DNA of 47,006 nt from positions 1 through 47,006 of the IMG/VR virus record IMGVR_UViG_3300042876_000370; one strand, 5' to 3'. This document shows positions 4,487 through 32,894 of the stretch, in pieces (within the stretch, counting starts at the first letter, position 1; every line of letters starts with the position of its first letter). Both the position numbers and the translations under genes were made by a program. The notes under the pieces were generated by a model. It was not told where the DNA came from and made no database searches. It saw nothing but the letters and a program-made list of their open reading frames with translations. This DNA is from a virus.

Positions 4487-4874
4487 ATTTGAAGTGACCG
4501 AGATCGTAGTTGGGCTGCTGGCGACCTATCCGAGCTTTCAGCCCAAGGTACCCATCCCGGAAATGGTCAAGGCGTACCGGCGGGCACTCGGAAACCTGCC
4601 GCCGGCAGCGGTGCGCCGGGGTGCGGCGGAGATCACGCGCGAGAGCAAGTTTTTCCCAAGCGCCCAGGAGATCCATTCAGCCGCCAGGCAGGTCATGGTG
4701 ACGTGCCGCGGGCATCAACTGATGGAACTGGACGACGCCGGCCAGCGCTTTCAGGATGAACTGTACGGCTTTGCCGAGCCGCTGCTGACGCACAACGGCG
4801 GGGAATGGAGCAAGGGCCAGGTTGAGGAATATACCCGGCTGATGGGGAAGAAACCCAGGATGGTGAAGGCGTGA
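4473..4874 (+). CDS. Helicase loader/inhibitor-like protein (G39P-type N-terminal domain)
   Basis: This 133-aa protein starts at ATG 4473 behind GGAGGG and overlaps the initiator by 14 bases. The segment ATYPSFQPKVPIPEMVKAY, then LGNLPPAAVRRGAAEITR and KFFPSAQEI, matches the layout of phage helicase loader/inhibitor N-terminal domains (aromatic-Pro turn, helix with W/Y, then [KR]FxP[ST]xxEI). Such proteins bind the host or phage DnaB helicase and deliver it to the initiator complex. The C-terminal part (residues 75-133) is helical and less typical. Overlap with an O-like gene upstream supports a replication role. No phage helicase is visible, so the host helicase would be its partner. Confidence 0.5.
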   Translation: MAVSEFEVTEIVVGLLATYPSFQPKVPIPEMVKAYRRALGNLPPAAVRRGAAEITRESKFFPSAQEIHSAARQVMVTCRGHQLMELDDAGQRFQDELYGFAEPLLTHNGGEWSKGQVEEYTRLMGKKPRMVKA

Positions 4875-9899: not shown

Positions 9900-10202
9900 A
9901 TGGGAAAGTTTAACGTGACTGCCAATCGGTCCAACCTCTTTCCCGAGTGGTGGGAAGAGAAGAAGAAAACAGTCGAAGCCCTGCCGCTGCGCATCCGGGC
10001 GATGCATGCGGCCCATGGGCTGCGGAGTGCGCAGAAGTGCAAGAACTGCGCGTTCTTCCAACGACACAGCCAGGCGGCGACCTGGTTTAAGTGTGCCAAG
10101 TCCAAGATAACCGGGGGATCGGCTACAGATTGGCGGGCAAACTGGCCGGCGTGCGGGAAGTTCAAGCCGCAAGAAACAGAGGAGACTCAGGGGAAACTAT
10201 GA
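9900..10202 (+). CDS. Small four-cysteine protein
   Basis: ATG 9900 follows AAAGGAGAA by a standard distance; the frame is open upstream only inside the preceding gene. The 100-aa protein has a basic N-terminus, LFPEWWEEKKK, and four Cys: CKNC then KCAKSK and PACGKF, a probable zinc site. Its stop overlaps the methyltransferase start (ATGA). Function unknown; coupling suggests a helper of the methyltransferase or an unrelated small phage protein. Confidence 0.6.
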   Translation: MGKFNVTANRSNLFPEWWEEKKKTVEALPLRIRAMHAAHGLRSAQKCKNCAFFQRHSQAATWFKCAKSKITGGSATDWRANWPACGKFKPQETEETQGKL

Positions 10203-11332
10203 TCCTCAACGCGAACGCTTTAGCTTTACCGCTGGCATCGAACAGCGTGCAGTGTGTGGTGACGAGCCCGCCCTACTGGGGGCTGCGTGATTATGGTGTG
10301 AAGGGCCAGCTCGGGACGGAACCCACACCGGATGAATATATCGTCAAGTTGGTAAGCGTGTTCAGAGAAGTGTGGCGGGTGCTGCGGGATGATGGTGTAT
10401 TGTGGCTCAACCTGGGCGACACGTATAGCGGTGGAGGCCGGGGCGGAAACGGGGACACAATCACCGGGAGAGGGAAAAACGCAAGCCAATGCTCTCATTA
10501 TGTGCCCGATAATCTCAAGGCCAAGAACTTGATAGGTATTCCCTGGCGGGTGGCGCTTGCGCTGCAGGCCGATGGCTGGTATTTGCGGTCTGATATTATT
10601 TGGCACAAACCCAACCCACTGCCCGAGAGTGTGGCAGATCGACCCACCAAGGCGCATGAGTATGTTTTTCTGCTGGCCAAACAAGAGCGCTACTTCTATG
10701 ATGCCGAGGCAATTAAAGAAATATCATCAGGCCAAACTGGGAGCGCCGTGAATTTCAAGCGCGCCTCCAAAGAGGATCTTTGCCCGGGCCAATCCCGCAC
10801 GCAGCACCGGGAAGAAAGAAGGGCAACGGAAGACTCCGGCTATCGCAACCGGCGCAGCGTGTGGACCATCCCCAGCCAGCCCACCAAAGAGGCGCACTTT
10901 GCGACCTACCCGGAGAAGCTGGTCGAACCCTGCATCCTGGCGGGCACGAGCGAAAAGGGTTGCTGCCCAAGATGTGGGCGGGCCTGGGTAAGGGTGGTAG
11001 AGAAGAACTTCATCCCCCAATCTGACATCAAGAACCCCGATAAGCTGCTGAGAAGCAGCGGCAAGGGAATGGACGAAACCAATGGATGGGCGGGGTTTCG
11101 GCGCGGGTCGGTAGATGCCAATACAACCGGCTGGCGCCCAGCCTGCACCTGCAACGCCGGCGATCCAATCCCTTGCCTGGTGCATGATCCCTTCTCAGGC
11201 TCAGGTACGACTGCGCGGGTAGCGATCCGCTTCAATCGGCGCTTTGTTGGGACGGAACTCAAATTCCAGTACATTAGCGAGATCAGCACGAAGCGGTTGA
11301 GCGAAGTACAGCGGGTCATCGAGGGTCTATGA
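10199..11332 (+). CDS. N4-cytosine/N6-adenine DNA methyltransferase
   Basis: The 377-aa protein starts at ATG 10199 (ATGA overlap). Catalytic motif IV is TSPPYWGLRDYG near residue 22, and the SAM-binding motif I, DPFSGSGTTARVAIRF, is near residue 333; this order (IV before I) is that of the beta class. SPPYW favours N4-cytosine or N6-adenine chemistry of the RsrI/PvuII type. Other typical blocks are WRVLRDDGVLWLNLGDTY, SDIIWHKPNPLPESV and KAHEYVFLLAK. A zinc-binding insert CCPRCGRAW with a second CTC near residue 318 is common in phage members. It gives the phage a second modification specificity beside the C5 enzyme, most likely to evade restriction. Confidence 0.9.
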   Translation: MILNANALALPLASNSVQCVVTSPPYWGLRDYGVKGQLGTEPTPDEYIVKLVSVFREVWRVLRDDGVLWLNLGDTYSGGGRGGNGDTITGRGKNASQCSHYVPDNLKAKNLIGIPWRVALALQADGWYLRSDIIWHKPNPLPESVADRPTKAHEYVFLLAKQERYFYDAEAIKEISSGQTGSAVNFKRASKEDLCPGQSRTQHREERRATEDSGYRNRRSVWTIPSQPTKEAHFATYPEKLVEPCILAGTSEKGCCPRCGRAWVRVVEKNFIPQSDIKNPDKLLRSSGKGMDETNGWAGFRRGSVDANTTGWRPACTCNAGDPIPCLVHDPFSGSGTTARVAIRFNRRFVGTELKFQYISEISTKRLSEVQRVIEGL

Positions 11333-17078: not shown

Positions 17079-20000
17079 ATGACTGACAATTCGCAGAGCA
17101 AGACGCCCATTCTTGACCAATATTACAAAGACCAGGCCGCGAAAGATGCGGCTGCTACTGGCGCGCCGGCAGTCTCGAACAACCCGAACCCGCTGGGGAT
17201 CTATGAACCCGGCCAGGATATGGGACCGCTGCGCTACAGTCCTGAAGAGCTGGACTACTGGCAGAAGGAATATGCCAAGACCGGGGAGAGCATTGACGCG
17301 AACTGGCTGGGCAACCAGCAGCAGCTCATCTATGACTACCACATGGCGCGGCCGGCGGACTCGTATTGGGAAGAGCCAAGCACCCTGGCGCGCTGGGCTT
17401 TGCTCGATCAGAACCTGCCCAAGGAAGCGGCCCGCCCGGTCTGGATGCAGTCTGATGTGTTGCAAGGGCTGTACAACTACCTGAGCGAACAGAACGGCAA
17501 CAAGCCGTGGTATGAGTGGGAGAAGCTCAAGACGACCGACCCGGTGCGGATCTTATTGCAGCGCATGCCGCTGCCTGATACCGGGGATATGCCCGACTGG
17601 GAGAAGAAGGCGCAATCCATTTACGGCAACCTGCCGCCTGACATTCTGAACGCCATCAGCAGCCTGCCCGACCCGCAGAAGTGGGGCGAGCAGCGCGCGC
17701 TGACCAGCGAGCAGACCGCCAAGATCCGCGAGATCAATAACTTTATCGAAAACCCCACGGTGGAGCAGGGCACAGACGCCAACGGCAACCCGATAGAGAT
17801 GGTCGCCGGCATCTCCAAGGCCGAGTGGGATGCGATGGACCTGGGCCAGAAGGCCGAATATATTGCCATGTCTCCCACGTCACCCTATGCGGCCCTTGTT
17901 CAGGCGCCGGCCATTGGGGTAGGGATGGGCGCGGTAGGCAGCGTGCTGGAAAGCGTAGGCCTCAAGGCGTTGTTCTCTCCGCAAGGTCTCAAGAATGTGA
18001 TTGCGGGTGGCGCTAAGGGCTTGATCCCCGGGGTTGCGTTTGGGATTGCGATGACCGCGGCCCAGCAGTACCGGCCTATGGAAGCGCTGGGAGCGGACCC
18101 GGCTGGCGTCCAGGCGAAGGGCTGGTTTAAAGACCTGTTGACCTCCATGGGTTTCCGGGTGGCGCCAGATGCATCCTGGGAAGATGCGGCCATGGAACTG
18201 CTCAACCTGCCCATGAATGAGATCCAGAAGCAAATCGGCTGGGGTGTGATGAACGCTGCGGACCTCGGGAAGATGCTGCGCGGTGAAGCCCCGGACACGG
18301 CGACCTTTGAAAAGATGGTCGCGCCCGAAGACCGGGACACGCCCGAGAAATTCAAGCAGCAGTACGAGCTGTGGAAGAACGCGCGGCTCGAAGCATCGCG
18401 CGCCTTCTACCAGACCGACCCGTTCAAAAACCTGACGGCGCGCGGTGTCGAAGTGCGCCAGCCCGGCAGCAAGGAAGTAACCCAATGGTCGCCGGCCGAT
18501 CCTAATTCATCCGTGTCTGAGTACGTGCTGGATCAGATTGCGATTGACATTTATCACAAGCTGAACGCCGGCGAACCCCTGGCGCCGACTGAGCTGGCCT
18601 ATCAGCCCATCCTGCAAACCCTGTTTGGGGTGGGCGGGCAGACCTCCAACCTGATCGCCCAGGTGGTATTAGACCCGTCCGACTTGATCCCCAAAGGCAT
18701 CAGTATTGTCTCTTCGGAGGCGAGCAATATTGCGACCAGCGTGATCGCCGGCAAGACCCCGAACGCCAAGCTGTCGGCTGCCATGCTGGAAGCCAAGGGA
18801 CCATACAGCGGACTGAAGCAATACCAGGCTGATCTCAAGCGCACGCCCGTGAATGAAATCCTGGATAACTACGGCTGGTTTGAGCGCACCTTAGCCGGGA
18901 TCGATGAGACCGGGCAGCGGAAAGACCTGAACACCGTTCAGAAGGGGAATGCAATCAGCCAATTCTTCGGCAAGCTGGCCGGGCTGACCCCGGAAAGCCG
19001 CGTCTTCGAGGTGGTGCATACCACCTATAACAGCGTGCTCAATATGCTGGACAATTTCCGGCGCGACACCGGCGCCGACCCTGAGCAGATGGTGCAATTT
19101 ATTGATCGTATTTCGGCCCCGACGCCCGAGGCCGCGATTCGGATGGCGGCGCAGGCGGAGACCATTACGGTGCCTATGAAGGTAGGGGGAGAAACGGTTT
19201 CAACTCCCCTGCCCCGCCAGTTCGCAAGCCCCGAGCTGCAGCCGGCCTTGATTGCGCTCAAGGACCAGGAAGTAAAAGTCCACGACCTGCTGAGTGAATG
19301 GCGCAGCGCGGAACCGGCCCGGGATCTGGTACGGCGCGCGGCGGCTGCTTTGGAAATGGACGAGCACCAGGTCATGGCAACGATGCTGAAGGGTGGCACC
19401 GAGGCGCGCAGCCTGATCGACCTGGCGACCAAGAAGGGCATGGCGGACGCGGCCGGATTGGAAGGGGCGGCGAAAATCTTCTATGATCCCACCAACAAGG
19501 CCAGGAAGACCGCCTTTTCTTCTGAAGACTTCCAGGCGGATCTCTCGATCTTACTGGCAGAAGGCGCCGAGAAGTGGGCCATTGGTCACTTTGGGGTGAA
19601 GGAAATGGGCTGGATGAACAAGCTCAACAACCTGATGAAGAACGCGCAGGGGTTGGTGCTGTTCGACTATAACCCGGCCTATGCCCTGAACAATGGCATC
19701 AATAACCTTGTCACTCTGGCATGGGATGGGCTCTTAGGCAGCTTCCGAGGCCCAACCTACAGCCGGCTGCTGGAGCGCTTTGGCCGACCCAGCTTTACCG
19801 AATCAGGCTTGACCCCGGCTGAATATGGCACCGGGCAGGCCGAGGCGGGCCTGGGTGGGCGCAAGGGCAGGGCGCAGAGCATCGGCGAAGAGGTGCGCAA
19901 AACCCGCTGGGGGACTGGCCGCATCGCCGATGCTAATGAGTTCGTGGGTGGCGTGCGCGGCAAGCTGGGTTTATTCAATCGGCTCTCGGGCTGGATGGAG

Positions 20001-23000
20001 CGCCGGACCAGTCAGATCGCAGTGGCGACCGCCCTGGATGAGATGATGGGCAGGAAGTGGCGCGCGAGTGCCGACCCCAAGAGCGGGGGCTATCGCAAGC
20101 TGCCGGCGGATTTGCGCGCGGACCTGAACCGGATTGCGCCCGGGCTGGCGGATAAGCTGGAAAAGGCGCCGGCTCGTGGGCTGAACGTGCAGGAAGTGGA
20201 GCGCGAAATCTTCAGCCGCTGGAACCAACGCAGCGTGAAGGACGTGCTGAGCGAAGGCGAGTATAACCTGCTCTCCAAGTTCCCGGCTGTGCTGGAAGGT
20301 CTGGAGACCAAGTTGCGGACTGCGACCGATATGCGCGGGGTAGACCAGGCGATTGACGAGACCAAGACCGAGTTTCAGGACCAGGTAAAAGAACGCCTGG
20401 CGCAATCGACCCGGGCCATGGTCGAACAGGGCAAGGCCGACATTACCGTCGAGGGCACGCAGAAAATCTTAGACAAGATTGATGATGTAGTGCCGAACCT
20501 GATGGAGTTTTGGGGCAAGTATCAGGACGCCATGGGCGAGACCGCCGAGCGCGCGCGCAACGCCCCGACCGACGAGGAAGCTGACCGGATCTGGTTTCAA
20601 AGCAAACGGGAATGGAATCAAAACTGGCGCAACTTCGAGGTATTGCAGGCCGGCACCTGGCGGGGTGTGTTCGAGGGATTGGGCATCAGAAGCATGGACG
20701 CGGCCAACCCAGCGAACAAACCCTACTTTGATTTCATGCAGAGCATGCAGGATCTGCACGACCGGCACCAGGCTTATTTCGTGGTGAGAGACCGGGAGCT
20801 AACCCGCTTCTTTACCGCCAAGAAGAACAAGAACATCACCAAGCGCGACCTGTCCAATATTTGGGCGGACGTGCAGCGGATCAACAACGAGGAATATATC
20901 CGCATGGTGGCGGATGAAGACGCGATCCAGGCGGCTGCGGATGAGGCATTCGTCACCCAGTTTGACCAGGAACGGCCCGAGAGTAAGGGCAGCGCGGCCC
21001 AGTGGCGCAGCGCCATCCGTGACGTGCGCCGGCAGATGATGCTCTCCGAGATCCTTTACCGCGGGGGCAGCCTGCCCGCTGGATTGGTCAAGGAATGGGG
21101 TGTCACGCTTCGCCCTGAGATCGTGCAGGAGATCAACAGCCTGACCCTCAACCGGGCAGAATGGCTGATCCCAGGCAACGAGCGGCCCGGCATACAGAAA
21201 GGTTATGCCGACATTCGCCGGCGCTTCCTGCGGGAAATGCTGGACGCATCGAACGGCAACCCGCCCGGCAAACCAGTCGCCCCACCCCCGGCACCGACCA
21301 TGCCGCCGGCGACTCCAATCGTGCAAACTGCACAAAAAACGCAGCCAGCGGCCCCAGGATCGGCGCCTAGCCCGATTGCTGAAGCAAGCCCTGTACCGAT
21401 GACCCCGGCAGCGCAAACAGGCCCTACAGCGCCCGTCCTAGCGGCTCCTGGGGGCATTGATGCGGTGACCGGACTGCCACATTATGATTACGCCCAACCC
21501 AAACCGGTGGCGGTGGTGGATCTATACGACCGCGAGGGTGCGGCTCTCAATCAGAGCGAACGCATGAACGTCCTGGCGCAGACCATTGAAGCCCAGGGAA
21601 TCGGGCAAGCAGCCTGGTATGGTGATGGCAAGCTGGCGGTTGTGGTCTCGGATCTGGACGCCGCCCGGACTGCCTTGCAGAACCTGGCCGATACCCAGGA
21701 GGGCGCCTTTGTCTTCGGGCTGGGCGCGCGCGCGGTGGACGCCGAGATTGCCGCCGGCCGCTATAAGAAGATCAACCAGCCCCCCGAACGGCGCGCCGCT
21801 ACCCGCGAGGAACGCCTGCAGTGGCTGGCCACCCATGACCAACTGACCCGGCTGTGGAATAAACTGGCGTTTGATGGGGATGGCGGCCAGATCAAGGGCG
21901 ATTGGCAGGAACGGATTGAACTCAACCAGGCAATGGGCTTACCTGCCCCGGTTGTCAGCGTGTTGGACGTGCGCGGCTTGCATGCCACCAATAACGAGAT
22001 CGGTTATGACGCCGGCGATGCCTACTTAAAAGCGATTGGGAAAGCCTTCACGGATGAGGGTTTAGATGGCTACCGGACCGGCGGGGATGAATTTGCCGCA
22101 ATCTTTGACGACCCCGCCCAGGCCAAAGAAGCCATGGACCGGGTGATTGAACGCATCAATGGTGCGATAATTCAAGTAGGAGAGAAATACTATGTCGGAT
22201 CAGCAGCCCATTACGGGACCGGCGGAGACTTCAAAACCGCCTACGAAGGACAGCTCGCAGCCAAGCGCGCCGACCCGCGCGCCGCAGAGTTCGAGCGTGC
22301 CACCTACAAACTCAAACCCGCCAGTGAAAGTGATCTTGCCGCCCAAGGGCAGCCACCTGATACCGCGCGCCCAGGCGGAACGGCTGGGACTGATACCACC
22401 CCGGGACGCACCTACGGCGGAACCATCGAAGACCTTGACGCCGCCGAGCGCGCCCGAGTCGACGCCGCCCGCGCCAGCTTCGCCGCCGGCCTCAACCGAG
22501 AGCAACACTTTGCCAAGCTCAGCCCCCAAGAGCGAGTAGTCCGCGAGAGTGAGGACTTCCGCCAGGCTGCCGCCCGGTTGCTGGATGAGCTATCGGGAGG
22601 CCACCCCGAAAAAATAAAAGGTGGTCCAATCCTGGGATCGACCAACCCGGAATGGTACAGCCTGCTGTATGACAGTTTCAAGAAGAACGGGCAGAGCCTC
22701 AATAAAGAGCTGCTGCGCGATGCCCTGCAATCCATCATCGACAAAACCGAAACCGAGTTCTACGCCGCCCGGCGCAATAAAGCGTTGGGCGATCAGTATA
22801 TCAACGAGGCTGAAAGGCTGGTACTGGGTTCGCTCTCGGAGAATGAACCGGTGCAGTTGTGGCTCTCTCATCGCTATCGGGACGCCATGCTGTCCTTCGA
22901 TGCGGTCAATGAGCAGCTTAAGGCCGCGGGGCTGGAGCCTTACGATGTGCTGCGCGAGATGCAAGCCGCGGGCTTCGGCGAAGAGCAGGCCAACAATTTC

Positions 23001-26000
23001 TATAACGCCTACGTCGCCTACCTGGATGGCCGCGACCCGCTGCCCGGGCTGACCACCGAAGAAGCCCATGGACTGGTAGCAGGCATGCGCGCCGCCGACC
23101 TGGTGGAAGTGACCGCCAGTGGCGAGATCCGCACCCCCGATGACATTGAAGCCCTGATCCCTGAAAAGCAGGCCCTGGAAGAAAAGCAGCCCAGCCGCGA
23201 AGCCCTACGCAGCGCAGTCCGCAAGGCCGCGCATGAAGCCGGCTTTGACTACGACGATAAGCACCTGATCGCCAGCGTGAACAAATACCTGGAGATCCCC
23301 GAGGGGCGGGTAACGAGCGTGGACGACCTGACCCCGGAGATGATTGACGCCTGGGTAAGCGCGCGCTCGAAAGCCAGCAAGGAAGCCGAAGAGATCAAGC
23401 GGATTGCGATTGAACAGGCGCGCATCCTGGATGAAAACCTTGAGGCGATCCGCGCGAAGTACCCGGATGAGGCCCGCGCCCACGAGATCAAGGATCTGCT
23501 GCTTGATTTCTACGGCGACGAAGACTTCGCCCAGGCGAGCTGGGAAGATTTTGACCTGGTGACGCGCAACCTGGCAGCCGTGACCGGCGAGAGCGTGGAC
23601 GCGCTGCGGGAGAGGATCTTAGCCAGCGTGGGTGATATAGACCTGCCCGCGCACCTGGAACAGCTTGCCGAGCTGCCAGTACAGGAAGGCTTGACGCGCC
23701 GGCTGGATGAGGCGCGCAAGGCTTTACTTGAAGAAACCTGGCATGACCCTGTTGCGAAACGGTTTATTGAACGGTATGAGCAGGAGGGTTATTATCGCCC
23801 AACCTATACTAACGATGGAAATTTCGAGCTGCACCGGTCAGAATTTCCTTCGTTTGTTGGGCATGAGGCAGCCTGGGAAGAGTTCAAGCTGGCCCTGTCA
23901 GACCTGAAATGGTATGAGGAGACCGGCGAGATTGCGGCCAGCACGATGAAGAGCTACCGAGATCTGCTTAATCGTCGGCACTCGGGTGAGTTCTTATGGC
24001 AGGACAGCGAAGGCAAGGCCATGGTAGAGAAGGCCGTTCAGAGGTATGGAACGACTGAAGACTTCGGCCAGGCTGGGTACATTCTCCCTGATGGACGGTT
24101 GCTGAACCTGAGGCGGGCAGAGCGGGATTACTTGGAACATTCCGGCGTAGCTGCGCATTTGTTGGGGCGCAATAAGACAAGCGGAAACGCAGACATTCGA
24201 GACTTCCAACGCCAGACTAATGCCATCCGAATGGACGCCTCTTCACCCAGCGCAGGGAATGCTTTGATCTTTTTGGATATGGCTACTCGTCCAACACGCG
24301 CACAGATGCGGGCTATCGAAAATGGAATCGCGTACAGCCCACATAACTACTTCACAATCCAGTACGACACGCCGGGAGGCGGGTACGGTACCTTCGGGAC
24401 CACCAAGGCGAACGCCCTGGACGACCTTAACAAGATGGTCCGCCAACGGTTTGACAATGCCCTCTTCCAAGATCGCAACGGCGCCACCTTCTGGGATGAA
24501 CAAGGGCGCGCGCACATTCGCCTGATGCGAGATGCCAAGAGGGATAGCAACTTCTCCACCTGGCACCATGAGTTTTTCCATGCCCTGCTGCCTTTGCTGC
24601 CGGCGGATATGCTCAAGGTGTTCGAGAAATACCTGGCCGACGAGCATGGAATCAGTAACCTGCCCGAAGGTTGGCAGAACGGCACCAAGAACGCCAAGGC
24701 CAAGGAGATCTTAGCCCGGGCAAATGAGCGCTACCTGGTGGAAGGCAAGCACGTTTTGAACCTGCCCGCCCAGGTGGTGGCTGTGCTGGATAAGATCAAG
24801 ATCTACATGCTCAAGGTCTACCAGCAGGTGACAGGTCACTCGATTGATGTGCCGCTGCCTGACTACCTGACAGAGGTATTTGATCGGCTGCGCAAGGAAG
24901 AGGAAGTCAAGCCGGTTATCCCCGAGAAGTCGTTTGGTCGCATCAAGCTTGGACCCAACGAGTTTGTAGATATTACCGCCTCAAATAGTGCAGATTGGTA
25001 CGGGCGATACACCGAAATGCTTAGAGGGTACTCGGCTAAAGCTGCCTTTGCGATGGACAGCAGCCTGTCCGAGGCAAGCAAAAAACTGCATGCGGCTGGC
25101 GTGTGGAACGCTTACGAGCAGCTCAACGACTTGAGAAATGCGCTTCTTGATAGCGGGATCAAGAGAATAGCGATCCCAACAGACCCCCGCAATATGGGGT
25201 TAGCAGACACCCGCCAGGTAGCCGAACCTCCATTATCCCCCGAGCCTGTTGCAACTACCGCAACACCAGAAGGACAATTCAACCTGATCCCTGAGACCGA
25301 GGGTTGGCAGTTGCAGGCGCAGACCGCGCAGGCGCAGAAGTTCAACCCGGCGCGCGAAGATTTGCAATCGTCCCTCTTCGAGCTACCCCAGCCCGAGGGG
25401 ATTAAACCAAAACCAGCGCCAACTACCACGGACTTAGGCCCGCTATTTGCCAACCAGCCCGAGCCCGAACCCAGCCCCTGGGTCAAGCAGGCGCCGGTTG
25501 CCGAACCCGCACCCGACCGCCAGGCGCGCCTGATGACCGCCCTCACAGAGCGGATTGTCAGCCAGCAAGATTTGTTCAAAACGTCGCGGGACTTTGAAGA
25601 CTTCGCGCGCAGTTTTGGATTTGACCTGGACCGGGAAGCGGATCTCAATTATGCGTATGACCTGCTAGAAGGCTCATTCAATCTGTTGACCCGCCGGCTG
25701 CGGGCGAACATGGCCGGGCTGCCCCTGGTGGATCGCCTGACGCAACTGGCCGCCCTGGAAAAGCAGCTCGTGAAGGCGCGCCGGACCCTGCTCAAGAGCG
25801 AACTGCAGCAGTTCTCTACCCCCCTGACCCTGAGTGAAGCCGCGGGAGAAGCCGCCGACGTGCGCCCGGGTGACGTGATTTGGGAACCCACCGCCGGCAC
25901 CGGGAACCTGGTCAACCGCTTCGCGGACGATAAGAGCGTGAGTGTGCGCGTCAACGAGATCGACCCGCAGCGCCGCGAAGTGCTCAAGCTGATCGGTTTC

Positions 26001-29000
26001 AATCCGACTGACCTGGATCTTCTAAGTCCGAAATGGCTGATTGGCAGCGATAAGAAGCTGCTCAAGCCGAACGCCAGCGTTCAAATCACGAACCCGCCCT
26101 GGGGGGCTTACTCCACCGGGAAATACGGGCAGGCCATGCCGCACCCGATCAAGGGTATGAACGACTGGTCGCAGCGGTTTACCTACCTGATGATGGAACG
26201 CCTGGCGCCGGGTGGCCGATTCGTGGGCGTGATGCCCCTGAATTGGATGTATACTGTGGATAGAAGCTCGCGCGCCCTCAACGTCAAGAAGTCAGCCTTC
26301 TTGACCTACCTGGAAGAGAATTACAATGTGCGCGCCCTGATCGAAAGCCCAGCAGGTGCCTACGATCAACGCGCGACCGGGGTAGGATCTCTTCTCATCG
26401 TGGTCGATAAGACCCAAAACAGCCTCAAGGATAGTAATACCAGGCTGTACCGTTGGGGTGAGAGCGCCCCGAAAGACTGGGCCGAGTATGCGGACCTGAT
26501 CAACCAGATCCAAAAGCGCGACCCGGAGGAAGTAAAGAGAGGTCAAAATGCTGCCCGAGCAACCGGACTCTTCAGCGATAGGAGCTTCGTCCTTCCCACC
26601 AAGCAACAACCCACCGGCCCCGATGCCGCCGGAATTGCCGACCCAGCCGCCCGCCGAGGTGAGCGAACCGGCGACCCCGCCAACATTGGAAAGCCCATCG
26701 AGCAACCCGCCCGAACCGAACCCCCAGCAGAGCGAGAACCCGCTGGAGGATTACCTGTTCAGCGGCCCGATAGAGAAGCAGGATCTATCAACCCAAGACC
26801 TGGTAACGAATTATCTGGGATTGGGGAGCGAATTGGCGGACAGCCCGGAGGACGTGCAGCGGATGCTGAACAACTGCCAACCCCGCCAGAAGGTAACAAC
26901 GCCCCCGTGGTGGAAGGGCAAACCCCAGGCGTTCCGGGACCGCTGGAACCAGGAATACCCGAACCGAGTGGACGACCTGGCGGAGAGCAGCCCGCAGCTC
27001 TTACAGAAGACCTGGGAGTACGGCCTGTTGAGCTCGCCCCAGTCCCAGCCGCAGAGCCCAGCCGAGAAGATATTGACTACCAGCGCAAGTGGCAGGCAAC
27101 GATTGATGCAGTTGAGAGCGCTGGAACTTTTGCTGGATATGTGGGGAGAAGCCAGGCAAGGTTAGAGGCTGAAGGCTACCCGACCCACCACCACCCCAGC
27201 GTGGTGGTCGAAACCAAGGCACTCATGGGAGTGCCGTACCCCGAGCTTGAAGACGCATACCGCCCGACCGATGGGGTGATGAAAGCTTATCAGAGTGGCG
27301 CCCTTTCCATGGAAGGGCAGCTTGACGTTGTGTGGGCGGCGATCCAACAGAACGATAAGCATGGCATGGGGATGCTGGTGGCGGATGACGTGGGCATGGG
27401 CAAGAGCCGCAGCGCCGCCGCCTTCGCCCTGGACCGGATTGAACGCGGGCAGAAGATCGTGCTCGTTGTTACCAAGAACCCGGGCAACGTGCGCAACCTG
27501 ATGAACAACGAGTTTCCGGCGATCTTTGGGGAGCAAAAGACCCGCTTCGTGGATCTCTCGGGTAAGAACATGCCCGATGTGAAGAACAAGAAAGAAATCC
27601 CCATCCCCACCTATGACGAGCCGGCGGTGTACTTTATGAGCGCCACCGAGTTCGCCTCCTTCGGCAACAAACTCAAGGATCTGCCCGTTCAAAGCGTGAT
27701 CGTGGATGAAGCCCACACGTTTAAAAGCGTGGACGATACCAAGCAGGGCATTTTCTGGACCGGTCTCCATGAGAAATGGAACGCTGATGGCGTGAATTTC
27801 CTGTACCTGACCGCCACCCCCGCGACCGACCTGATGGAAATGAAATACCTGTATGGTTTGAAACTGTGGACCGTGGACGGTTTTGGGGATTGGCTGGGGG
27901 TGCTGACCGGCAAGATGAGCCCGGAACAGGCCAAGACCAAGGCCAAGGTTTTCAACGAGGCAGCGGCTTATCAGAAGCAATTGACCGAAGCGGCCGCGCC
28001 GGTCCTGACGAATGTGGAACCTTTGTTCGGCGGCAAAGAGTTGGGCTACAACTTTGACGACAATCTGTACTACCAGGAAGGTCGCCAAAAAGGAACCGGG
28101 AAACTGATCGCCAGTGACCGTTATGGCAGCCCGGTTGAGATTTACAGCGGTGATGCGACCATGGCCGCGATCATCGGGCAAACCTTGAGCGACATTCTGC
28201 AGCCAGGCGAAAGCGGGCAAATCTCTAAATATATGGTGGACTATTACAAGTCCCAGGCGATGCAGGCGATTGACGAGAAATTCCCCGCGCCCAAGATCGA
28301 CAAAGAGACCCGCGACGCCCTGAACACGGATGCCTCCGATGCCCTGGAACTGCTGGATAAGAAGGGTAAGAAGCGCTTCGGCGCCGGCCGGACCGCCTTC
28401 GAGAGCACCCTGCCCCCGGAGCACACCGAGCAGATCATGCGCGAGATGAAGCTGGGCGGCAGCTACATGAGCCGGGATATTGCCCGGAACGGGGTGGAGT
28501 TTGAGGCCAAGGAAATCAAGCTGACCCCCGAACAGAAACGCCGGCAGGATGAACGGATTGACTTCTACCGCCAGGTCATCGCAGCCTATCAGAAATGGGG
28601 CAAGTTGAACAAGCAGAAGAAGATGGACTTTGGGGTAATGGGGAAGATCCAGGACGATGCCAAGCGCGCTCTGTTTGACTACCGCCTGACCCAATCGCTG
28701 CCCGAGATCGACGCGGCGATTGCGCGCGGGGAGCAGGTGGTGATTGCGCTGGTCTCGGTGGGCGAAGTGGACCCCCTGCAAGGCGGGCACCTGCGTTCAG
28801 CAATCGATATGATCAACCACGAGGAATCGCACGAGACCGGCGATGGCACGTACAGCGACCCCGCGGACATACCCGAGGCCCAAGAGGAAAAAGCCAGGCT
28901 GCTGGAGCAGGCCGAAAAACTGGGCCTGGGCAGCCCGATCAAGCTGCTCGAAAGCAAGTACGGCGACCGGATTGGGTTTGTGACCGGCGAGGTCACGGAT

Positions 29001-32000
29001 AAAGCCCGCGCCTCTGCGATGACTGCCTTCCAGCGGAACAAGCTGGATGCTATCGTGATCTCCGGCGCCGGCAAGACCGGGATCAACCTGCACGACATTA
29101 CCGGCAAGCGGCGCATGCACCTGATGGTGGTGGACTTCGACTGGTCGGCCACCGAGTTTAAACAAGAGCTGGGCCGGGTAGACCGCACCGGGCAGAAGAG
29201 CGCGCCGAAAGTGACGGTCTTCCATACCGGGAACGCAGCCGAGCTGAAGTTTATCTCGACCATCACCAACCGCATGAAAGGGCTGGGCGCAACCTCTAAG
29301 GGCGGATCGGAATCGACCGGCACCAGCGCACTCAACGAGCAGTTTGAGCTGGGCTCGACCTACGACAAAGAAGCCCTCAATGAGATGTGGCGCAAGCTGC
29401 CCCGCCCGGATAAGCTGCTGTTCATGGATAAGTATTTCTACGATAACGGACAGCCCAAGGCCGAACTGAGGCAGACCGCCGAGGCAATCAAGAAGTTCAC
29501 CATGGCGCTGCAAAGCATCAGCCTGGATAAGGCCAATCAACTCGTAAAACTCTGGATGGATGAGCGCGCCAAGTTTACCGAGTTGGAAGCCGGGGCTGCG
29601 GCAGTCAAGAAACAGATGAGCTCAGGCGACGTGCTGCGCACGACCGAACTGGGACCGAACCTGACCCTGACCGAGGCGCGCGACGCGACCGGGCACCGTT
29701 TTGGGGTGGTCTCGGGGGTACTTACCCCGCAGATGAACAAGCTGGCCAGCGCCTTCGGCAGCACAGACAGCGAATTTGTGAATGGCGAATGGCGCCCGAA
29801 ACAATGGCGGGAGTGGATCAACTTTACCAATACGACCAACAATGAGAAAGTCTCGGGCCTGGTCATCCCCCCAGGAAAGATTGAAACCATTGCGGCCATG
29901 TACGGCACCAGCATCAAGGCCAACCGCAGCATAGCGACCGCCCTGGAAGACATCAAGGCCGGCGATAAGCTGCCGATCGTGGGCGCGGATATGAATGAGT
30001 GGACCCTGCGCCTGGGCACGCTGGGCGCGCGCAAGGGCAAGATCGTGATTGAAGGCGCGCGCATGGCACAGAAGAACCCGCTGATGAACAACGGCGCGCG
30101 CTATGATGCGGTTGGATCGTTCTTCTATGTGCCCGAGGAAAAGCTACAAGACTTCCTGCACCGCTTCCCGCTGCGCGAAGAGACGCCGCCGGGAGCACTC
30201 TACCAGGAGGCAGAAGCCCCAAGCGTTCCGCCTGGCTCGCGCCGGATGGCAGCGAACCCAGCCGATGACATTCGCGCTGTGATGACTGGGCAGGCAAAGC
30301 TAGAAGACTATGGCCCGAATGTGCAAAAGTTTATTCAGGCGGGTATCGCTCAGTTTGTCTCTTCTTACGAGCGAAAAGCAGGCACCCCCGAATGGATGGA
30401 ATGGTTTAAGCCAACCTACGAGGCATACAAAGCGCGCCAGCAGCCAGCTACCCCGGCTGTCAATGCCCCGCTGGGCACCGCCGAAAGCATGAGCCAACCA
30501 CCGACCGATACCGCCCAAATGATGGGCTACCTCTCGGAGGTTGGGCCAGTCCTGGAGAAAGCGCGCGGAGAGTTCGGCAAACAGCGCGCCACCCCTAACA
30601 GCGTGATGAACCTGGAGCAAGCCTTACCGCCCGAGACCATGAAGAAAGTACGCGGCTGGGCGGGCGGGGTCTATGCGGACCTGGCCGACACCAAGTACCA
30701 GGCGATCCAACACGCCAAGATGCGGCGGGATGCCGCTTTGCTGGACTACACCAAGCGGACCGGCTTCGATAACCTGCTGGGCGCGATCTTCCCGTACTCC
30801 TTCTGGTACACCCATTCGATGGTCAACTGGGCGATCCGGGCGCTCGAACGCCCGAGCACCCTGATCAACTACATGCGCATCCGCAACCTGCAAAACCGCC
30901 AGCAGAAAGAAGCAAACAGCCCGGGCCGGCTGGAAGGCAAGATTGAGCTGCCGTTCCTCTCCCAGGCATTGGGCGGGCGCTTCTTTGTGGACCCCATGCG
31001 CCAGATTTACCCGTTCGAGCAGATGCTGCGACCGTTTGAGAACTTCGCGGCTGACAAGAATCAGGCCGAGAAGCGCGCGGCGCAGCTCATCACGTACCAG
31101 GCGGAGAACGAAACCATCACCAGCGCCGAGGCGCAGACCGCCATCACCAGCAAGGCCGGTCCGCTGTGGGAGCGGGCCTATAACCAGGCGGAGCTGGAGA
31201 TCAAGGACGTGCAGCCCGGCGAATTGTCTTCTCAGTGGCAGCCCGGGCAGTCGCGGGATTGGGTGGATCTGGCGTTCCAGGTCTTATCTCCCAGCCTGCC
31301 CCTTTCTTTGGGCTATAACCTGGCGACTGGCCGGCAGATGGGGAGTCTCCCCGTTCAACGCTTCGTGCAGAACGTGACCTCCCCCTTCGGGATCGGCGGA
31401 CCGCGCGGGTTTATGCTGACCCGAGATAAGTTTGACGATTATAGAGAGGACAGAGAGTTGGCAAACATGGCCGGCGAAGGGCTGATTTCAACGGATGAAG
31501 CCAAGCGCGCCATGATCGACCGGGTTGGACCGGCCTTCGCGCAGGCCCAGCAGCGGGTAGCCAAGACCACCAGCGTGCAATACTGGCTGTCTTCTCTCGC
31601 GGCGGACCTGTACCCGGAGGGCGAACAGCACAACCGCGAACTGCACGACGAATATCTGAAGGCCCTGCAGCAGAAGGTGATGGGCGATAAGCAGGCCTTG
31701 AATAAGTTCTATGACGAGTACCCCGAGTATGAGGCCCGCAACGCCTCTTTCGATGAACCCGAGCCGCGCCTACGCCAAATGCTGATCTCGCAGATTTGGG
31801 ACAAATACGGCGAACTGAACAAGCTCAACCAGGACGCAGCGCAGAAACAACTGGGCGAGAAATTCGGCAATGCGTTTGTCAACAAAGAGACCCGCTCTTA
31901 TGACAGCATCGACACGCAGACCCTGGGCTTTTGGGCCAAGACCCTGGGCGCCAAGACCCCGGCGAAAGTGGCCGCCCCTGAGACCCCCTTGCAAGGGGTG

Positions 32001-32894
32001 CCAGCGGCCACCAGCGCGAACTATGACGCCTTCACCGCGGCCAAAGCCCAGGCCTTCCCGGGGCTGGACGCCCTCTATAAAATCTACTGGACTGCCAAAC
32101 CCGGAGAGCGCACCCTGATCGAAAAGGGCCACCCGGAGATGCAGAAGTACATGAGTTGGAAGACCCAATACCTGGCGCAACACCCGGACCTGATTCCCTA
32201 CGAGATCAGTGAAACCAGCAGCCTGTACGGCGCGCCGGCGCAGGTCCAGCAGTATGTTTATCAATACTGGGCCGGACGCGACCAGCGCTATCCGGGCATC
32301 ATGGACACGCAGGAAAAGTATTTCTCCTTCAGCGACAAAGCCGCGAAGAAGGCCTACCTCACGGCCCACCCCGAGTTATCGGAATATTGGGACTGGCGCA
32401 AGCAGGTTGCCGCGCAGATGCCAACCGCAGCGCCATACATCTTCAGCGCCGAGACCCTGGCCGGGATGATCCTGGGCACCAGCGGCAGCAGCGGGGGCAG
32501 TAGTGGCGGCAAGAGCGCGCCGCAGGTGGACGTACCGGCTCAATTGCGCCGGGTGGTGGTGGAGCATGCCAACGCCGGGACCAAGCTCAGTCTCGGGATT
32601 GAGAGCGAGACTCGCGCGCTGATGGCGAAGGTTGGGGTAAGCGGCTCAATGGAAACCTTCTGGCGGGATATGCTGCCGCAGATCCAACCCCAGGAGCACC
32701 CCCCGGTACTGTCTCAAGACGAGTTAGCCCAAATCCCCCCCGAACTGACCCGGCAACTGACCGCCCTGAAATATGGCGGGAAACCGCTGGGAGCGGGCGG
32801 GCTGGCGCAGGTGGATGCGCTGCGTAAGAAGTTGAACATTCCGACCGACGCGGAAGGCTTCTTACAGGTCTACCTGCTGCCGGCGCTTCAATAA
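17079..32894 (+). CDS. Giant polyvalent protein (5271 aa): GGDEF, metallopeptidase, DarB-like methyltransferase and helicase
   Basis: One uninterrupted frame from ATG 17079 (GGAG 7 bases upstream) covers a third of the genome. Domains by residue: helical N-terminus with a Gly/Ala-rich hydrophobic stretch (268-331); Pro/Ala linker (1395-1460); degenerate GGDEF-like domain (1461-1560, DAVTGLPHYD and WYGDGKLAVVV); GGDEF domain (1585-1735, THDQLTRLWNKLAF, LDVRGLHATNN, RTGGDEF at 1666-1672); polyvalent-associated domain (about 2330-2420, AGYILPDGRLLNL and RPTRAQM); zincin motif HEFFH at 2497-2501; adenine methyltransferase (2908-3100, QQFSTP, EPTAGTGNL at 2936, NPPW at 3005); SF2 helicase of strawberry-notch type (3400-4060, DVGMGKS to 3443, DEAH at 3543, GRVDRTGQ at 4032); hydrophobic IFPYSFWY at 4570; two C-terminal repeats (about 4993-5052 and 5071-5130). 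Methyltransferase plus helicase is the make-up of P1 DarB, a virion anti-restriction protein. Position between portal and scaffold suggests packaging and ejection with DNA. Confidence 0.88.
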   Translation: MTDNSQSKTPILDQYYKDQAAKDAAATGAPAVSNNPNPLGIYEPGQDMGPLRYSPEELDYWQKEYAKTGESIDANWLGNQQQLIYDYHMARPADSYWEEPSTLARWALLDQNLPKEAARPVWMQSDVLQGLYNYLSEQNGNKPWYEWEKLKTTDPVRILLQRMPLPDTGDMPDWEKKAQSIYGNLPPDILNAISSLPDPQKWGEQRALTSEQTAKIREINNFIENPTVEQGTDANGNPIEMVAGISKAEWDAMDLGQKAEYIAMSPTSPYAALVQAPAIGVGMGAVGSVLESVGLKALFSPQGLKNVIAGGAKGLIPGVAFGIAMTAAQQYRPMEALGADPAGVQAKGWFKDLLTSMGFRVAPDASWEDAAMELLNLPMNEIQKQIGWGVMNAADLGKMLRGEAPDTATFEKMVAPEDRDTPEKFKQQYELWKNARLEASRAFYQTDPFKNLTARGVEVRQPGSKEVTQWSPADPNSSVSEYVLDQIAIDIYHKLNAGEPLAPTELAYQPILQTLFGVGGQTSNLIAQVVLDPSDLIPKGISIVSSEASNIATSVIAGKTPNAKLSAAMLEAKGPYSGLKQYQADLKRTPVNEILDNYGWFERTLAGIDETGQRKDLNTVQKGNAISQFFGKLAGLTPESRVFEVVHTTYNSVLNMLDNFRRDTGADPEQMVQFIDRISAPTPEAAIRMAAQAETITVPMKVGGETVSTPLPRQFASPELQPALIALKDQEVKVHDLLSEWRSAEPARDLVRRAAAALEMDEHQVMATMLKGGTEARSLIDLATKKGMADAAGLEGAAKIFYDPTNKARKTAFSSEDFQADLSILLAEGAEKWAIGHFGVKEMGWMNKLNNLMKNAQGLVLFDYNPAYALNNGINNLVTLAWDGLLGSFRGPTYSRLLERFGRPSFTESGLTPAEYGTGQAEAGLGGRKGRAQSIGEEVRKTRWGTGRIADANEFVGGVRGKLGLFNRLSGWMERRTSQIAVATALDEMMGRKWRASADPKSGGYRKLPADLRADLNRIAPGLADKLEKAPARGLNVQEVEREIFSRWNQRSVKDVLSEGEYNLLSKFPAVLEGLETKLRTATDMRGVDQAIDETKTEFQDQVKERLAQSTRAMVEQGKADITVEGTQKILDKIDDVVPNLMEFWGKYQDAMGETAERARNAPTDEEADRIWFQSKREWNQNWRNFEVLQAGTWRGVFEGLGIRSMDAANPANKPYFDFMQSMQDLHDRHQAYFVVRDRELTRFFTAKKNKNITKRDLSNIWADVQRINNEEYIRMVADEDAIQAAADEAFVTQFDQERPESKGSAAQWRSAIRDVRRQMMLSEILYRGGSLPAGLVKEWGVTLRPEIVQEINSLTLNRAEWLIPGNERPGIQKGYADIRRRFLREMLDASNGNPPGKPVAPPPAPTMPPATPIVQTAQKTQPAAPGSAPSPIAEASPVPMTPAAQTGPTAPVLAAPGGIDAVTGLPHYDYAQPKPVAVVDLYDREGAALNQSERMNVLAQTIEAQGIGQAAWYGDGKLAVVVSDLDAARTALQNLADTQEGAFVFGLGARAVDAEIAAGRYKKINQPPERRAATREERLQWLATHDQLTRLWNKLAFDGDGGQIKGDWQERIELNQAMGLPAPVVSVLDVRGLHATNNEIGYDAGDAYLKAIGKAFTDEGLDGYRTGGDEFAAIFDDPAQAKEAMDRVIERINGAIIQVGEKYYVGSAAHYGTGGDFKTAYEGQLAAKRADPRAAEFERATYKLKPASESDLAAQGQPPDTARPGGTAGTDTTPGRTYGGTIEDLDAAERARVDAARASFAAGLNREQHFAKLSPQERVVRESEDFRQAAARLLDELSGGHPEKIKGGPILGSTNPEWYSLLYDSFKKNGQSLNKELLRDALQSIIDKTETEFYAARRNKALGDQYINEAERLVLGSLSENEPVQLWLSHRYRDAMLSFDAVNEQLKAAGLEPYDVLREMQAAGFGEEQANNFYNAYVAYLDGRDPLPGLTTEEAHGLVAGMRAADLVEVTASGEIRTPDDIEALIPEKQALEEKQPSREALRSAVRKAAHEAGFDYDDKHLIASVNKYLEIPEGRVTSVDDLTPEMIDAWVSARSKASKEAEEIKRIAIEQARILDENLEAIRAKYPDEARAHEIKDLLLDFYGDEDFAQASWEDFDLVTRNLAAVTGESVDALRERILASVGDIDLPAHLEQLAELPVQEGLTRRLDEARKALLEETWHDPVAKRFIERYEQEGYYRPTYTNDGNFELHRSEFPSFVGHEAAWEEFKLALSDLKWYEETGEIAASTMKSYRDLLNRRHSGEFLWQDSEGKAMVEKAVQRYGTTEDFGQAGYILPDGRLLNLRRAERDYLEHSGVAAHLLGRNKTSGNADIRDFQRQTNAIRMDASSPSAGNALIFLDMATRPTRAQMRAIENGIAYSPHNYFTIQYDTPGGGYGTFGTTKANALDDLNKMVRQRFDNALFQDRNGATFWDEQGRAHIRLMRDAKRDSNFSTWHHEFFHALLPLLPADMLKVFEKYLADEHGISNLPEGWQNGTKNAKAKEILARANERYLVEGKHVLNLPAQVVAVLDKIKIYMLKVYQQVTGHSIDVPLPDYLTEVFDRLRKEEEVKPVIPEKSFGRIKLGPNEFVDITASNSADWYGRYTEMLRGYSAKAAFAMDSSLSEASKKLHAAGVWNAYEQLNDLRNALLDSGIKRIAIPTDPRNMGLADTRQVAEPPLSPEPVATTATPEGQFNLIPETEGWQLQAQTAQAQKFNPAREDLQSSLFELPQPEGIKPKPAPTTTDLGPLFANQPEPEPSPWVKQAPVAEPAPDRQARLMTALTERIVSQQDLFKTSRDFEDFARSFGFDLDREADLNYAYDLLEGSFNLLTRRLRANMAGLPLVDRLTQLAALEKQLVKARRTLLKSELQQFSTPLTLSEAAGEAADVRPGDVIWEPTAGTGNLVNRFADDKSVSVRVNEIDPQRREVLKLIGFNPTDLDLLSPKWLIGSDKKLLKPNASVQITNPPWGAYSTGKYGQAMPHPIKGMNDWSQRFTYLMMERLAPGGRFVGVMPLNWMYTVDRSSRALNVKKSAFLTYLEENYNVRALIESPAGAYDQRATGVGSLLIVVDKTQNSLKDSNTRLYRWGESAPKDWAEYADLINQIQKRDPEEVKRGQNAARATGLFSDRSFVLPTKQQPTGPDAAGIADPAARRGERTGDPANIGKPIEQPARTEPPAEREPAGGLPVQRPDREAGSINPRPGNELSGIGERIGGQPGGRAADAEQLPTPPEGNNAPVVEGQTPGVPGPLEPGIPEPSGRPGGEQPAALTEDLGVRPVELAPVPAAEPSREDIDYQRKWQATIDAVESAGTFAGYVGRSQARLEAEGYPTHHHPSVVVETKALMGVPYPELEDAYRPTDGVMKAYQSGALSMEGQLDVVWAAIQQNDKHGMGMLVADDVGMGKSRSAAAFALDRIERGQKIVLVVTKNPGNVRNLMNNEFPAIFGEQKTRFVDLSGKNMPDVKNKKEIPIPTYDEPAVYFMSATEFASFGNKLKDLPVQSVIVDEAHTFKSVDDTKQGIFWTGLHEKWNADGVNFLYLTATPATDLMEMKYLYGLKLWTVDGFGDWLGVLTGKMSPEQAKTKAKVFNEAAAYQKQLTEAAAPVLTNVEPLFGGKELGYNFDDNLYYQEGRQKGTGKLIASDRYGSPVEIYSGDATMAAIIGQTLSDILQPGESGQISKYMVDYYKSQAMQAIDEKFPAPKIDKETRDALNTDASDALELLDKKGKKRFGAGRTAFESTLPPEHTEQIMREMKLGGSYMSRDIARNGVEFEAKEIKLTPEQKRRQDERIDFYRQVIAAYQKWGKLNKQKKMDFGVMGKIQDDAKRALFDYRLTQSLPEIDAAIARGEQVVIALVSVGEVDPLQGGHLRSAIDMINHEESHETGDGTYSDPADIPEAQEEKARLLEQAEKLGLGSPIKLLESKYGDRIGFVTGEVTDKARASAMTAFQRNKLDAIVISGAGKTGINLHDITGKRRMHLMVVDFDWSATEFKQELGRVDRTGQKSAPKVTVFHTGNAAELKFISTITNRMKGLGATSKGGSESTGTSALNEQFELGSTYDKEALNEMWRKLPRPDKLLFMDKYFYDNGQPKAELRQTAEAIKKFTMALQSISLDKANQLVKLWMDERAKFTELEAGAAAVKKQMSSGDVLRTTELGPNLTLTEARDATGHRFGVVSGVLTPQMNKLASAFGSTDSEFVNGEWRPKQWREWINFTNTTNNEKVSGLVIPPGKIETIAAMYGTSIKANRSIATALEDIKAGDKLPIVGADMNEWTLRLGTLGARKGKIVIEGARMAQKNPLMNNGARYDAVGSFFYVPEEKLQDFLHRFPLREETPPGALYQEAEAPSVPPGSRRMAANPADDIRAVMTGQAKLEDYGPNVQKFIQAGIAQFVSSYERKAGTPEWMEWFKPTYEAYKARQQPATPAVNAPLGTAESMSQPPTDTAQMMGYLSEVGPVLEKARGEFGKQRATPNSVMNLEQALPPETMKKVRGWAGGVYADLADTKYQAIQHAKMRRDAALLDYTKRTGFDNLLGAIFPYSFWYTHSMVNWAIRALERPSTLINYMRIRNLQNRQQKEANSPGRLEGKIELPFLSQALGGRFFVDPMRQIYPFEQMLRPFENFAADKNQAEKRAAQLITYQAENETITSAEAQTAITSKAGPLWERAYNQAELEIKDVQPGELSSQWQPGQSRDWVDLAFQVLSPSLPLSLGYNLATGRQMGSLPVQRFVQNVTSPFGIGGPRGFMLTRDKFDDYREDRELANMAGEGLISTDEAKRAMIDRVGPAFAQAQQRVAKTTSVQYWLSSLAADLYPEGEQHNRELHDEYLKALQQKVMGDKQALNKFYDEYPEYEARNASFDEPEPRLRQMLISQIWDKYGELNKLNQDAAQKQLGEKFGNAFVNKETRSYDSIDTQTLGFWAKTLGAKTPAKVAAPETPLQGVPAATSANYDAFTAAKAQAFPGLDALYKIYWTAKPGERTLIEKGHPEMQKYMSWKTQYLAQHPDLIPYEISETSSLYGAPAQVQQYVYQYWAGRDQRYPGIMDTQEKYFSFSDKAAKKAYLTAHPELSEYWDWRKQVAAQMPTAAPYIFSAETLAGMILGTSGSSGGSSGGKSAPQVDVPAQLRRVVVEHANAGTKLSLGIESETRALMAKVGVSGSMETFWRDMLPQIQPQEHPPVLSQDELAQIPPELTRQLTALKYGGKPLGAGGLAQVDALRKKLNIPTDAEGFLQVYLLPALQ
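22192..22539 (+). CDS. Candidate nested gene 1 (+1 frame, inside the giant gene)
   Basis: A 115-aa Pro/Ser/Thr-rich ORF (MSDQQPITGPAETSKPP...) lies in the +1 frame where the giant protein leaves its GGDEF domain and enters a linker. AGGAGA sits 8-9 bases before the ATG. Codons in this frame favour G and C at the third position, but so do those of the giant frame here, so codon use does not decide. The product looks disordered except for PRAQAERLGLIPPRD. Evidence for translation is the ribosome site and the shared relative frame with nested gene 2. Confidence 0.35.
   Translation: MSDQQPITGPAETSKPPTKDSSQPSAPTRAPQSSSVPPTNSNPPVKVILPPKGSHLIPRAQAERLGLIPPRDAPTAEPSKTLTPPSAPESTPPAPASPPASTESNTLPSSAPKSE
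26548..27165 (+). CDS. Candidate nested gene 2 (+1 frame, inside the giant gene)
   Basis: A 205-aa ORF in the +1 frame begins at ATG 26548 with AGAGAGGT about 5 bases upstream. Residues 1-60 are Pro/Ser-rich; residues 65-165 look folded and helical (NPLEDYLFSGPIEKQDLST, SPEDVQRMLNNC, WWKGKPQAFRDRWNQEYP). From about 26735 to 27100 this frame uses the genome's usual codons (CTG, GAG, AAC, CAG, CCG), while the giant frame over the same bases uses many GGA, CCA, CGA, GCA and TTA codons and encodes a Gly/Pro-rich linker between the methyltransferase and helicase domains. That contrast suggests the nested frame is under selection. Function unknown. Confidence 0.55.
   Translation: MLPEQPDSSAIGASSFPPSNNPPAPMPPELPTQPPAEVSEPATPPTLESPSSNPPEPNPQQSENPLEDYLFSGPIEKQDLSTQDLVTNYLGLGSELADSPEDVQRMLNNCQPRQKVTTPPWWKGKPQAFRDRWNQEYPNRVDDLAESSPQLLQKTWEYGLLSSPQSQPQSPAEKILTTSASGRQRLMQLRALELLLDMWGEARQG

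Follow-up and report, generated by a model that had tools for sequence, protein, structure and literature searches.

A probable conserved dual-coding locus in the methyltransferase-helicase linker of a giant phage protein

In the 47,006-base IMG/VR virus record analyzed here (the whole stretch of DNA is referred to as the window), the linker between the methyltransferase and helicase domains of a giant protein very likely constitutes a genuine conserved dual-coding locus, with constraint partitioned between the giant frame and the +1 frame. The 205-aa ORF read in the latter from 26548 to 27165 is very likely a real, conserved nested gene, with the reservation that proteomic or ribosome-profiling data are not at hand. 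Its translation and the selection acting on its product are inferred with high confidence, translation itself being visible only in the form of a start codon and a Shine-Dalgarno-like site.

In the phage, for which Chloroflexi bacteria are the likely hosts, a terminase and a portal-like gene precede the giant ORF and a major capsid gene follows it, an arrangement shared with the Manatee Spring podovirus. As expected for DarB-like proteins, the giant unites a methyltransferase with an SF2 helicase, fused to the C-terminus of the former, within a single huge polypeptide, and is likely a DarB-like polyvalent protein with a methylase-helicase dyad. Packaging and injection have been predicted for this type of dyad (Iyer et al., 2017, PMC5512222). 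For the giant of the window, packaging in the virion and injection are likewise only predicted, solely on the basis of its position beside portal-like and capsid genes. A Gly/Pro/Arg-rich linker connects its methyltransferase to its helicase, and the locus is composed as follows.

17079..32894, plus strand: giant polyvalent ORF of 5271 aa, between portal-like and scaffold/major-capsid genes (ORF list)
~25533..26466, plus strand: methyltransferase domain of the N6-adenine type within the giant (NPPW motif); its end lies shortly before the nested start
26533..26535, plus strand: TAA in the nested (+1) frame, 5' border of the open run, which extends from 26536 (sequence)
26537..26542, plus strand: GAGAGG, probable Shine-Dalgarno site, 5 nt upstream of the ATG (sequence)
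26548..27165, plus strand: nested gene of 205 aa, +1 relative to the giant ORF, ATG start (ORF list, homologues in L017, L025 and L030, codon usage)
26548..26733, plus strand: N-terminal part, 186 bases, Pro/Ser-rich; the giant frame is the conserved one (shuffled alignments)
26734..26949, plus strand: nested core, 216 bases, ENPLEDYL ... PPWW ... FRDRWN; the nested frame is the conserved one (shuffled alignments, frame-blind third-position test)
26950..27162, plus strand: C-terminal part, 213 bases, QLRALELLLDMWGE helix; several pairs show conservation in both frames (shuffled alignments)
~27228..29187, plus strand: SF2/strawberry-notch-like helicase domain of the giant (Pfam AAA_34, Helicase_C_4; alignment)

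The 205-aa +1 ORF with a Shine-Dalgarno site had already been described in the initial annotation, which holds exactly on this point. The Shine-Dalgarno site overlaps codons of the last conserved segment of the methyltransferase.

Three relatives of the window were found, namely the IMG/VR phage contigs L017 and L025, via a degenerate DNA pattern for DDVGMGK, and the Chloroflexi MAG L030, via an alignment scan, resulting in a family of four members that all derive from metagenomes or a MAG. Around the nested ORF, the giant protein is about 44 to 55% identical to its three counterparts. Each of these shows a +1 ORF in the same methyltransferase-helicase linker (133, 153, and 140 aa, respectively), representing the longest +1 run of the whole giant in question. 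Stop codons in the nested frame of homologues, which according to the initial annotation would refute the proposed gene, are absent from all three relatives; the frame is hence open at the homologous place in 4/4 members. Moreover, an ATG and a Shine-Dalgarno-like site are present in all four (AGGAGG in L017 and L030, GAGGTG in L025, GAGAGG in the window), and a +1 stop directly precedes the ATG in the window, L017, and L030. The nested proteins have in common a core, ENPLExL...P.WW...F...WN, and a C-terminal helix, QLRxLExLLxMW. No relatives were recovered by single-protein scans, P0001 was without match in the phage collection, a free-standing nested homologue was not found in phages, and 800 Chloroflexi-phylum/class genome draws did not yield an additional family member. 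A further contig, L002 (IMGVR_UViG_3300044712_000954), represents the same virus as the window (100% identity over 11,054 bases); being identical up to 26670, it is useless for comparison.

For assigning constraint to the frames, the nested gene was cut into three parts, each frame being aligned freely and scored against shuffles; the resulting pairs are not independent of each other. In the N-terminal part, the giant frame reaches Z values of 9.8 to 13.8 versus 0.3 to 3.5 for the nested frame, and the giant keeps a conserved motif of its own here, GPDAxGIxDPAAR. In the core, the relation is inverted, with Z values of 7.7 to 14.1 for the nested and 0.1 to 4.9 for the giant frame. In the C-terminal part, both frames are conserved between L017 and L030 (giant Z 17.0, nested Z 12.7), while pairs with the window are weaker and neither frame is conserved between window and L025. 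In a frame-blind DNA alignment, identities at codon positions 1/2/3 of the giant amounted to 0.66/0.71/0.41 for the helicase, 0.65/0.65/0.43 for the N-terminal part, and 0.51/0.54/0.56 for the core; hence, the normally free third positions of the giant are the most conserved ones in the core. The depressed change at synonymous sites of the giant frame, named as support in the initial annotation, is thus seen in the core (third-position identity of 0.558 versus 0.406 in the helicase control), albeit by a comparison of third-position identities that is not model-based (FRESCo, OLGenie). In stretches where the giant is conserved, some similarity spills into the other frame, but the conservation of the nested frame in the core goes beyond this effect. 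Accordingly, the claim that the nested frame is now the constrained one holds for the core, is reversed in the first 186 bases, and has to be modified for the last part, where both frames can be constrained.

Independently of homologues, codon preference passes to the nested frame near 26590 and returns to the giant frame near 27040, the +1 frame outscoring the giant frame in 60-codon windows starting from 26589 to 26979. The initial annotation had assigned the normal codons of the genome to the nested frame from about 26735 to 27100, which holds, with the observed stretch being slightly wider on the 5' side. The nested-minus-giant codon log-likelihood is +0.21 per codon versus a background of -1.03 (SD 0.20, maximum -0.42, 462 windows of the same giant). 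All four members are outliers in this respect, at Z values of 4.9 to 7.2 and each above its own background maximum, and in a scan of the four giants the nested locus stands alone in having an alternative frame that clearly makes better use of the genome's codons. GC3 of the giant frame in the window is 0.40 to 0.45 in the core and C-terminal parts versus 0.75 elsewhere; across the cores of all four members, GC3 amounts to 0.77 to 0.84 in the nested and 0.33 to 0.40 in the giant frame. The length of the open run, by comparison, is weak evidence, as 4% of synonymous codon permutations of the giant attain a +1 run of 209 codons (P = 0.04), and it is marginal in 3/4 members (P 0.04 to 0.06).

The nested protein has no significant profile or sequence match in Pfam, PHROGs, NCBIfam, PADLOC, or PDB. 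AlphaFold2 predicts all-helix models for the window family at low confidence (mean pLDDT 47.5 and 56.4), lending only weak support to the earlier notion of a folded-looking helical protein, and a fold search from these models was dropped due to the weak prediction.

When more distant methylase-helicase fusions were screened for +1 runs in the same linker, two further lineages turned out to be convincing.

L005:6800-7156: nested +1 gene of Bacteroides phage BS-TP4, unannotated, in the methyltransferase-helicase linker
L061:2324-2701: nested +1 gene of an IMG/VR relative of BS-TP4, unannotated, in the methyltransferase-helicase linker
L048:5001-5345, L045:5001-5345, L046:5001-5345, L047:4983-5336: nested +1 genes of Methylomonas/Methylotuvimicrobium/Thioflavicoccus plasmids, unannotated

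The two Bacteroides phage-type nested proteins are 78% identical (nested codon-position identity 0.79/0.94/0.63) versus 55% for the giant frame over the same bases, and third positions of the giant frame are identical at 0.92 versus 0.42 in both flanks. This nested gene is clearly under protein-level constraint. On the plasmids, which are of conjugative type, the nested product is an acidic, Leu/Ala/Glu-rich protein of about 114 aa, with 66 to 69% identity among Methylococcales and 48% to Thioflavicoccus. Nested codon-position identity is about 0.7/0.85/0.59 here, compared to 0.85/0.92/0.45 for the giant outside the overlap, and third positions of the giant in the Methylococcales plasmids reach 0.83 to 0.85 in the overlap versus 0.44 to 0.47 outside. 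In each of the four plasmids, the nested ATG coincides with one and the same codon of the giant, and a ribosome site is also kept there (the Thioflavicoccus ATG is at L047:4983, with 4992 used for alignment, and its giant run ends early). In two annotated Methylococcales plasmids and the Bacteroides phage, the matching regions are annotated only as giant. All nested proteins are small and acidic, with ratios of D+E over K+R of 27/15, 20/12, 16/10, 22/15, 27/13, 13/4, 16/6, and 16/6, and none could be assigned to a known family.

In all three lineages, the nested gene starts right after the last conserved segment of the methyltransferase. Homology among the three nested families was not detectable by hhalign and shuffled alignments, although very deep homology is not excluded; a resemblance in W spacing picked up by eye did not survive shuffling. 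A supported nested gene is absent from twelve other members (L003, L007, L009, L049-L056, and L058-L060, minus those without testable linker), as judged from translations and codon scores rather than by formal testing of each one. Long +1 runs do occur in Martelella, Azospirillum, Methylorubrum, Paracoccus, Methylocystis, and others, but were discarded because they are Arg-rich out-of-frame reads whose codon usage is poor. The methyltransferase-helicase linker is thus likely a recurring site for overlooked nested genes. As a separate observation, the methylase-helicase gene of Azospirillum (L049) is located between type I-E cas genes and a gene for a phosphorothioate-dependent restriction endonuclease.

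The proposed explanation is that the giant, predicted to be packaged and injected, bears its methyltransferase and helicase on either side of a disordered linker, and that ribosomes probably also start inside the giant mRNA at the internal Shine-Dalgarno site. This would yield, from the +1 frame, a small acidic product distinct from the giant, of 205 aa in the window and 133 to 153 aa in relatives. Such dual coding with an internal start is very likely as the overall explanation, and so is the independent translation, both remaining inferences with regard to translation. The function is far less certain. Since the corresponding domain border is also where unrelated nested genes begin in two other dyad lineages, the product might assist or regulate the methyltransferase-helicase dyad as an accessory factor, for instance by chaperoning or inhibiting it while it is synthesized and packaged, or by joining it as a subunit on injected DNA. 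Inferred from position only, this assignment falls somewhat short of being probable, but it is the leading guess, followed by an anti-restriction DNA mimic. It is also possible that the linker is a plain gene nursery, merely offering the only free space, which would explain the position without any functional link. A bolder reading would regard the linker in Chloroflexi phages, Bacteroides phages, and conjugative plasmids as a recurrent cradle, in which at least three unrelated +1 genes encode an overlooked third component of the dyad in early DNA entry or protection; the odds are at present slightly against it.

Among the rival explanations, the best surviving one is that the nested gene is the older, formerly free-standing or inserted one and the giant linker the newer frame, established via read-through. 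In favor of this, the core shows the genome's codon usage and GC3 in the nested but not in the giant frame of all four members, and genome-like codon usage is a published mark of the ancestral rather than the overprinted frame (PMC3744397). In addition, the closest plasmid relative without nested gene (Azospirillum) has a visibly shorter linker. Against it, fused methyltransferase-linker-helicase proteins without any nested gene occur in many lineages, the giant frame keeps its own conserved motif over the nested N-terminus, the search for free-standing phage homologues was negative, and gp50 of BS-TP3, encoded by the sole separate small gene behind a lone methyltransferase, is not similar. 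Possibly, a free linker would let a new frame optimize its codons, and the nested-free fusions may fit a gain inside a pre-existing linker without proving it. This rival is somewhat disfavored as it stands. With four members, the direction of origin remains undecided, codon usage favoring the nested frame in the core and nested-free fusions favoring an older linker. The initial proposal that the gene arose inside a linker is not shown.

Alternatively, the nested protein could be an acidic DNA mimic or early anti-restriction factor acting on host enzymes independently of the giant. The acidic nature of all nested proteins and the anti-restriction setting of the DarB-like dyad (PMC5512222) would fit; against this, sequence matches to defense or anti-defense families in PADLOC are lacking. 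The charge of the nested proteins is modest compared to known DNA mimics, and this alternative is unlikely. Even less support is found for programmed ribosomal frameshifting from the giant, producing a methyltransferase-nested fusion without internal start. The nested frame is indeed +1 with the giant overlapping on both sides, and the codon pattern could likewise result from ribosomes changing frame on entering the core and again on leaving it. However, ATG and Shine-Dalgarno-like site are found at the equivalent place in 4/4 members, an upstream shift is unworkable because of the +1 stop directly preceding the ATG (window, L017, L030), the plasmid lineage keeps ATG and ribosome site at one codon, and a common slippery string was not found by eye (without formal scan), making frameshifting very unlikely.

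Two further explanations are all but excluded. If compensating frameshifts or assembly errors had made the linker from a former giant domain, with the nested ORF as relic, the switch in codon preference would be accounted for, but the same +1 arrangement in four independent contigs rules out a sequencing error, L002, from the same virus, matches the window without differences as far as 26670, and the core frame is still conserved after divergence to about 30% identity, unlike a relic. Chance, in the sense that disordered linkers have few +1 stops and similarity spills over from the giant frame, is compatible with the marginal run length and with the spill-over seen where the giant is conserved, but is contradicted by the core with its conserved nested and non-conserved giant frame, by the third-position and codon-usage tests, and by the merely Arg-rich +1 runs of poor codon usage in other linkers of methylase-helicase fusions.

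Returning to the preferred reading of an internally started nested gene, the window giant resembles the known DarB-like dyad (PMC5512222) in that its methyltransferase is fused to an SF2/strawberry-notch-like helicase, both being part of a huge multi-domain product whose ORF is situated amid virion genes, but differs in carrying a conserved second gene in the +1 frame over the linker; the terms overlap, frameshift, and linker are absent from the searched text of that study. Nested genes of the phiX174 type are same-strand overprinted genes with internal starts. With overprinted viral genes of this kind (PMC8227390), the present case shares the fully nested, same-strand, +1 arrangement with its own start and the combination of one disordered and one presumably structured frame. 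In contrast, it resides in the giant virion-type ORF of a dsDNA tailed phage, and three unrelated nested families occupy the equivalent linker in phages and plasmids. Ocr and ArdA are small and acidic free-standing anti-restriction proteins; the nested protein is likewise small, acidic, and in an anti-restriction setting, but lacks detectable homology, is less acidic, and is encoded inside another gene. A report on a nested gene in a methylase-helicase dyad was not found in the open-access literature searched, which does not prove absence, as subscription papers were mostly outside the search.

Gene finders normally drop genes nested in others, and such genes therefore stay unannotated. Provided that the products are synthesized, a partner of the anti-restriction dyads in phages and plasmids has so far gone unnoticed. 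Moreover, the repeated occupation of a single linker by genes without common ancestry in evidence, with constraint divided between the frames, represents a natural test case for the origin of dual-coding genes, and the Methylotuvimicrobium, Methylomonas, and Bacteroides cases are growable and hence experimentally testable.

Elsewhere in the giant, a weak GGDEF (diguanylate-cyclase-like) match is located at 21831-22060 (residues ~1584-1657), below the Pfam cut-off. A second +1 ORF following this segment (22192-22539, 115 aa, Pro-rich, AGGAG before the ATG) was rejected as probably due to chance, since codon usage is not supportive and an open counterpart is missing at the GGDEF region of L025. 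Besides the methyltransferase of the giant, the phage encodes two more DNA methyltransferases (window 4871-6331 and 10091-11332, PHROGs).
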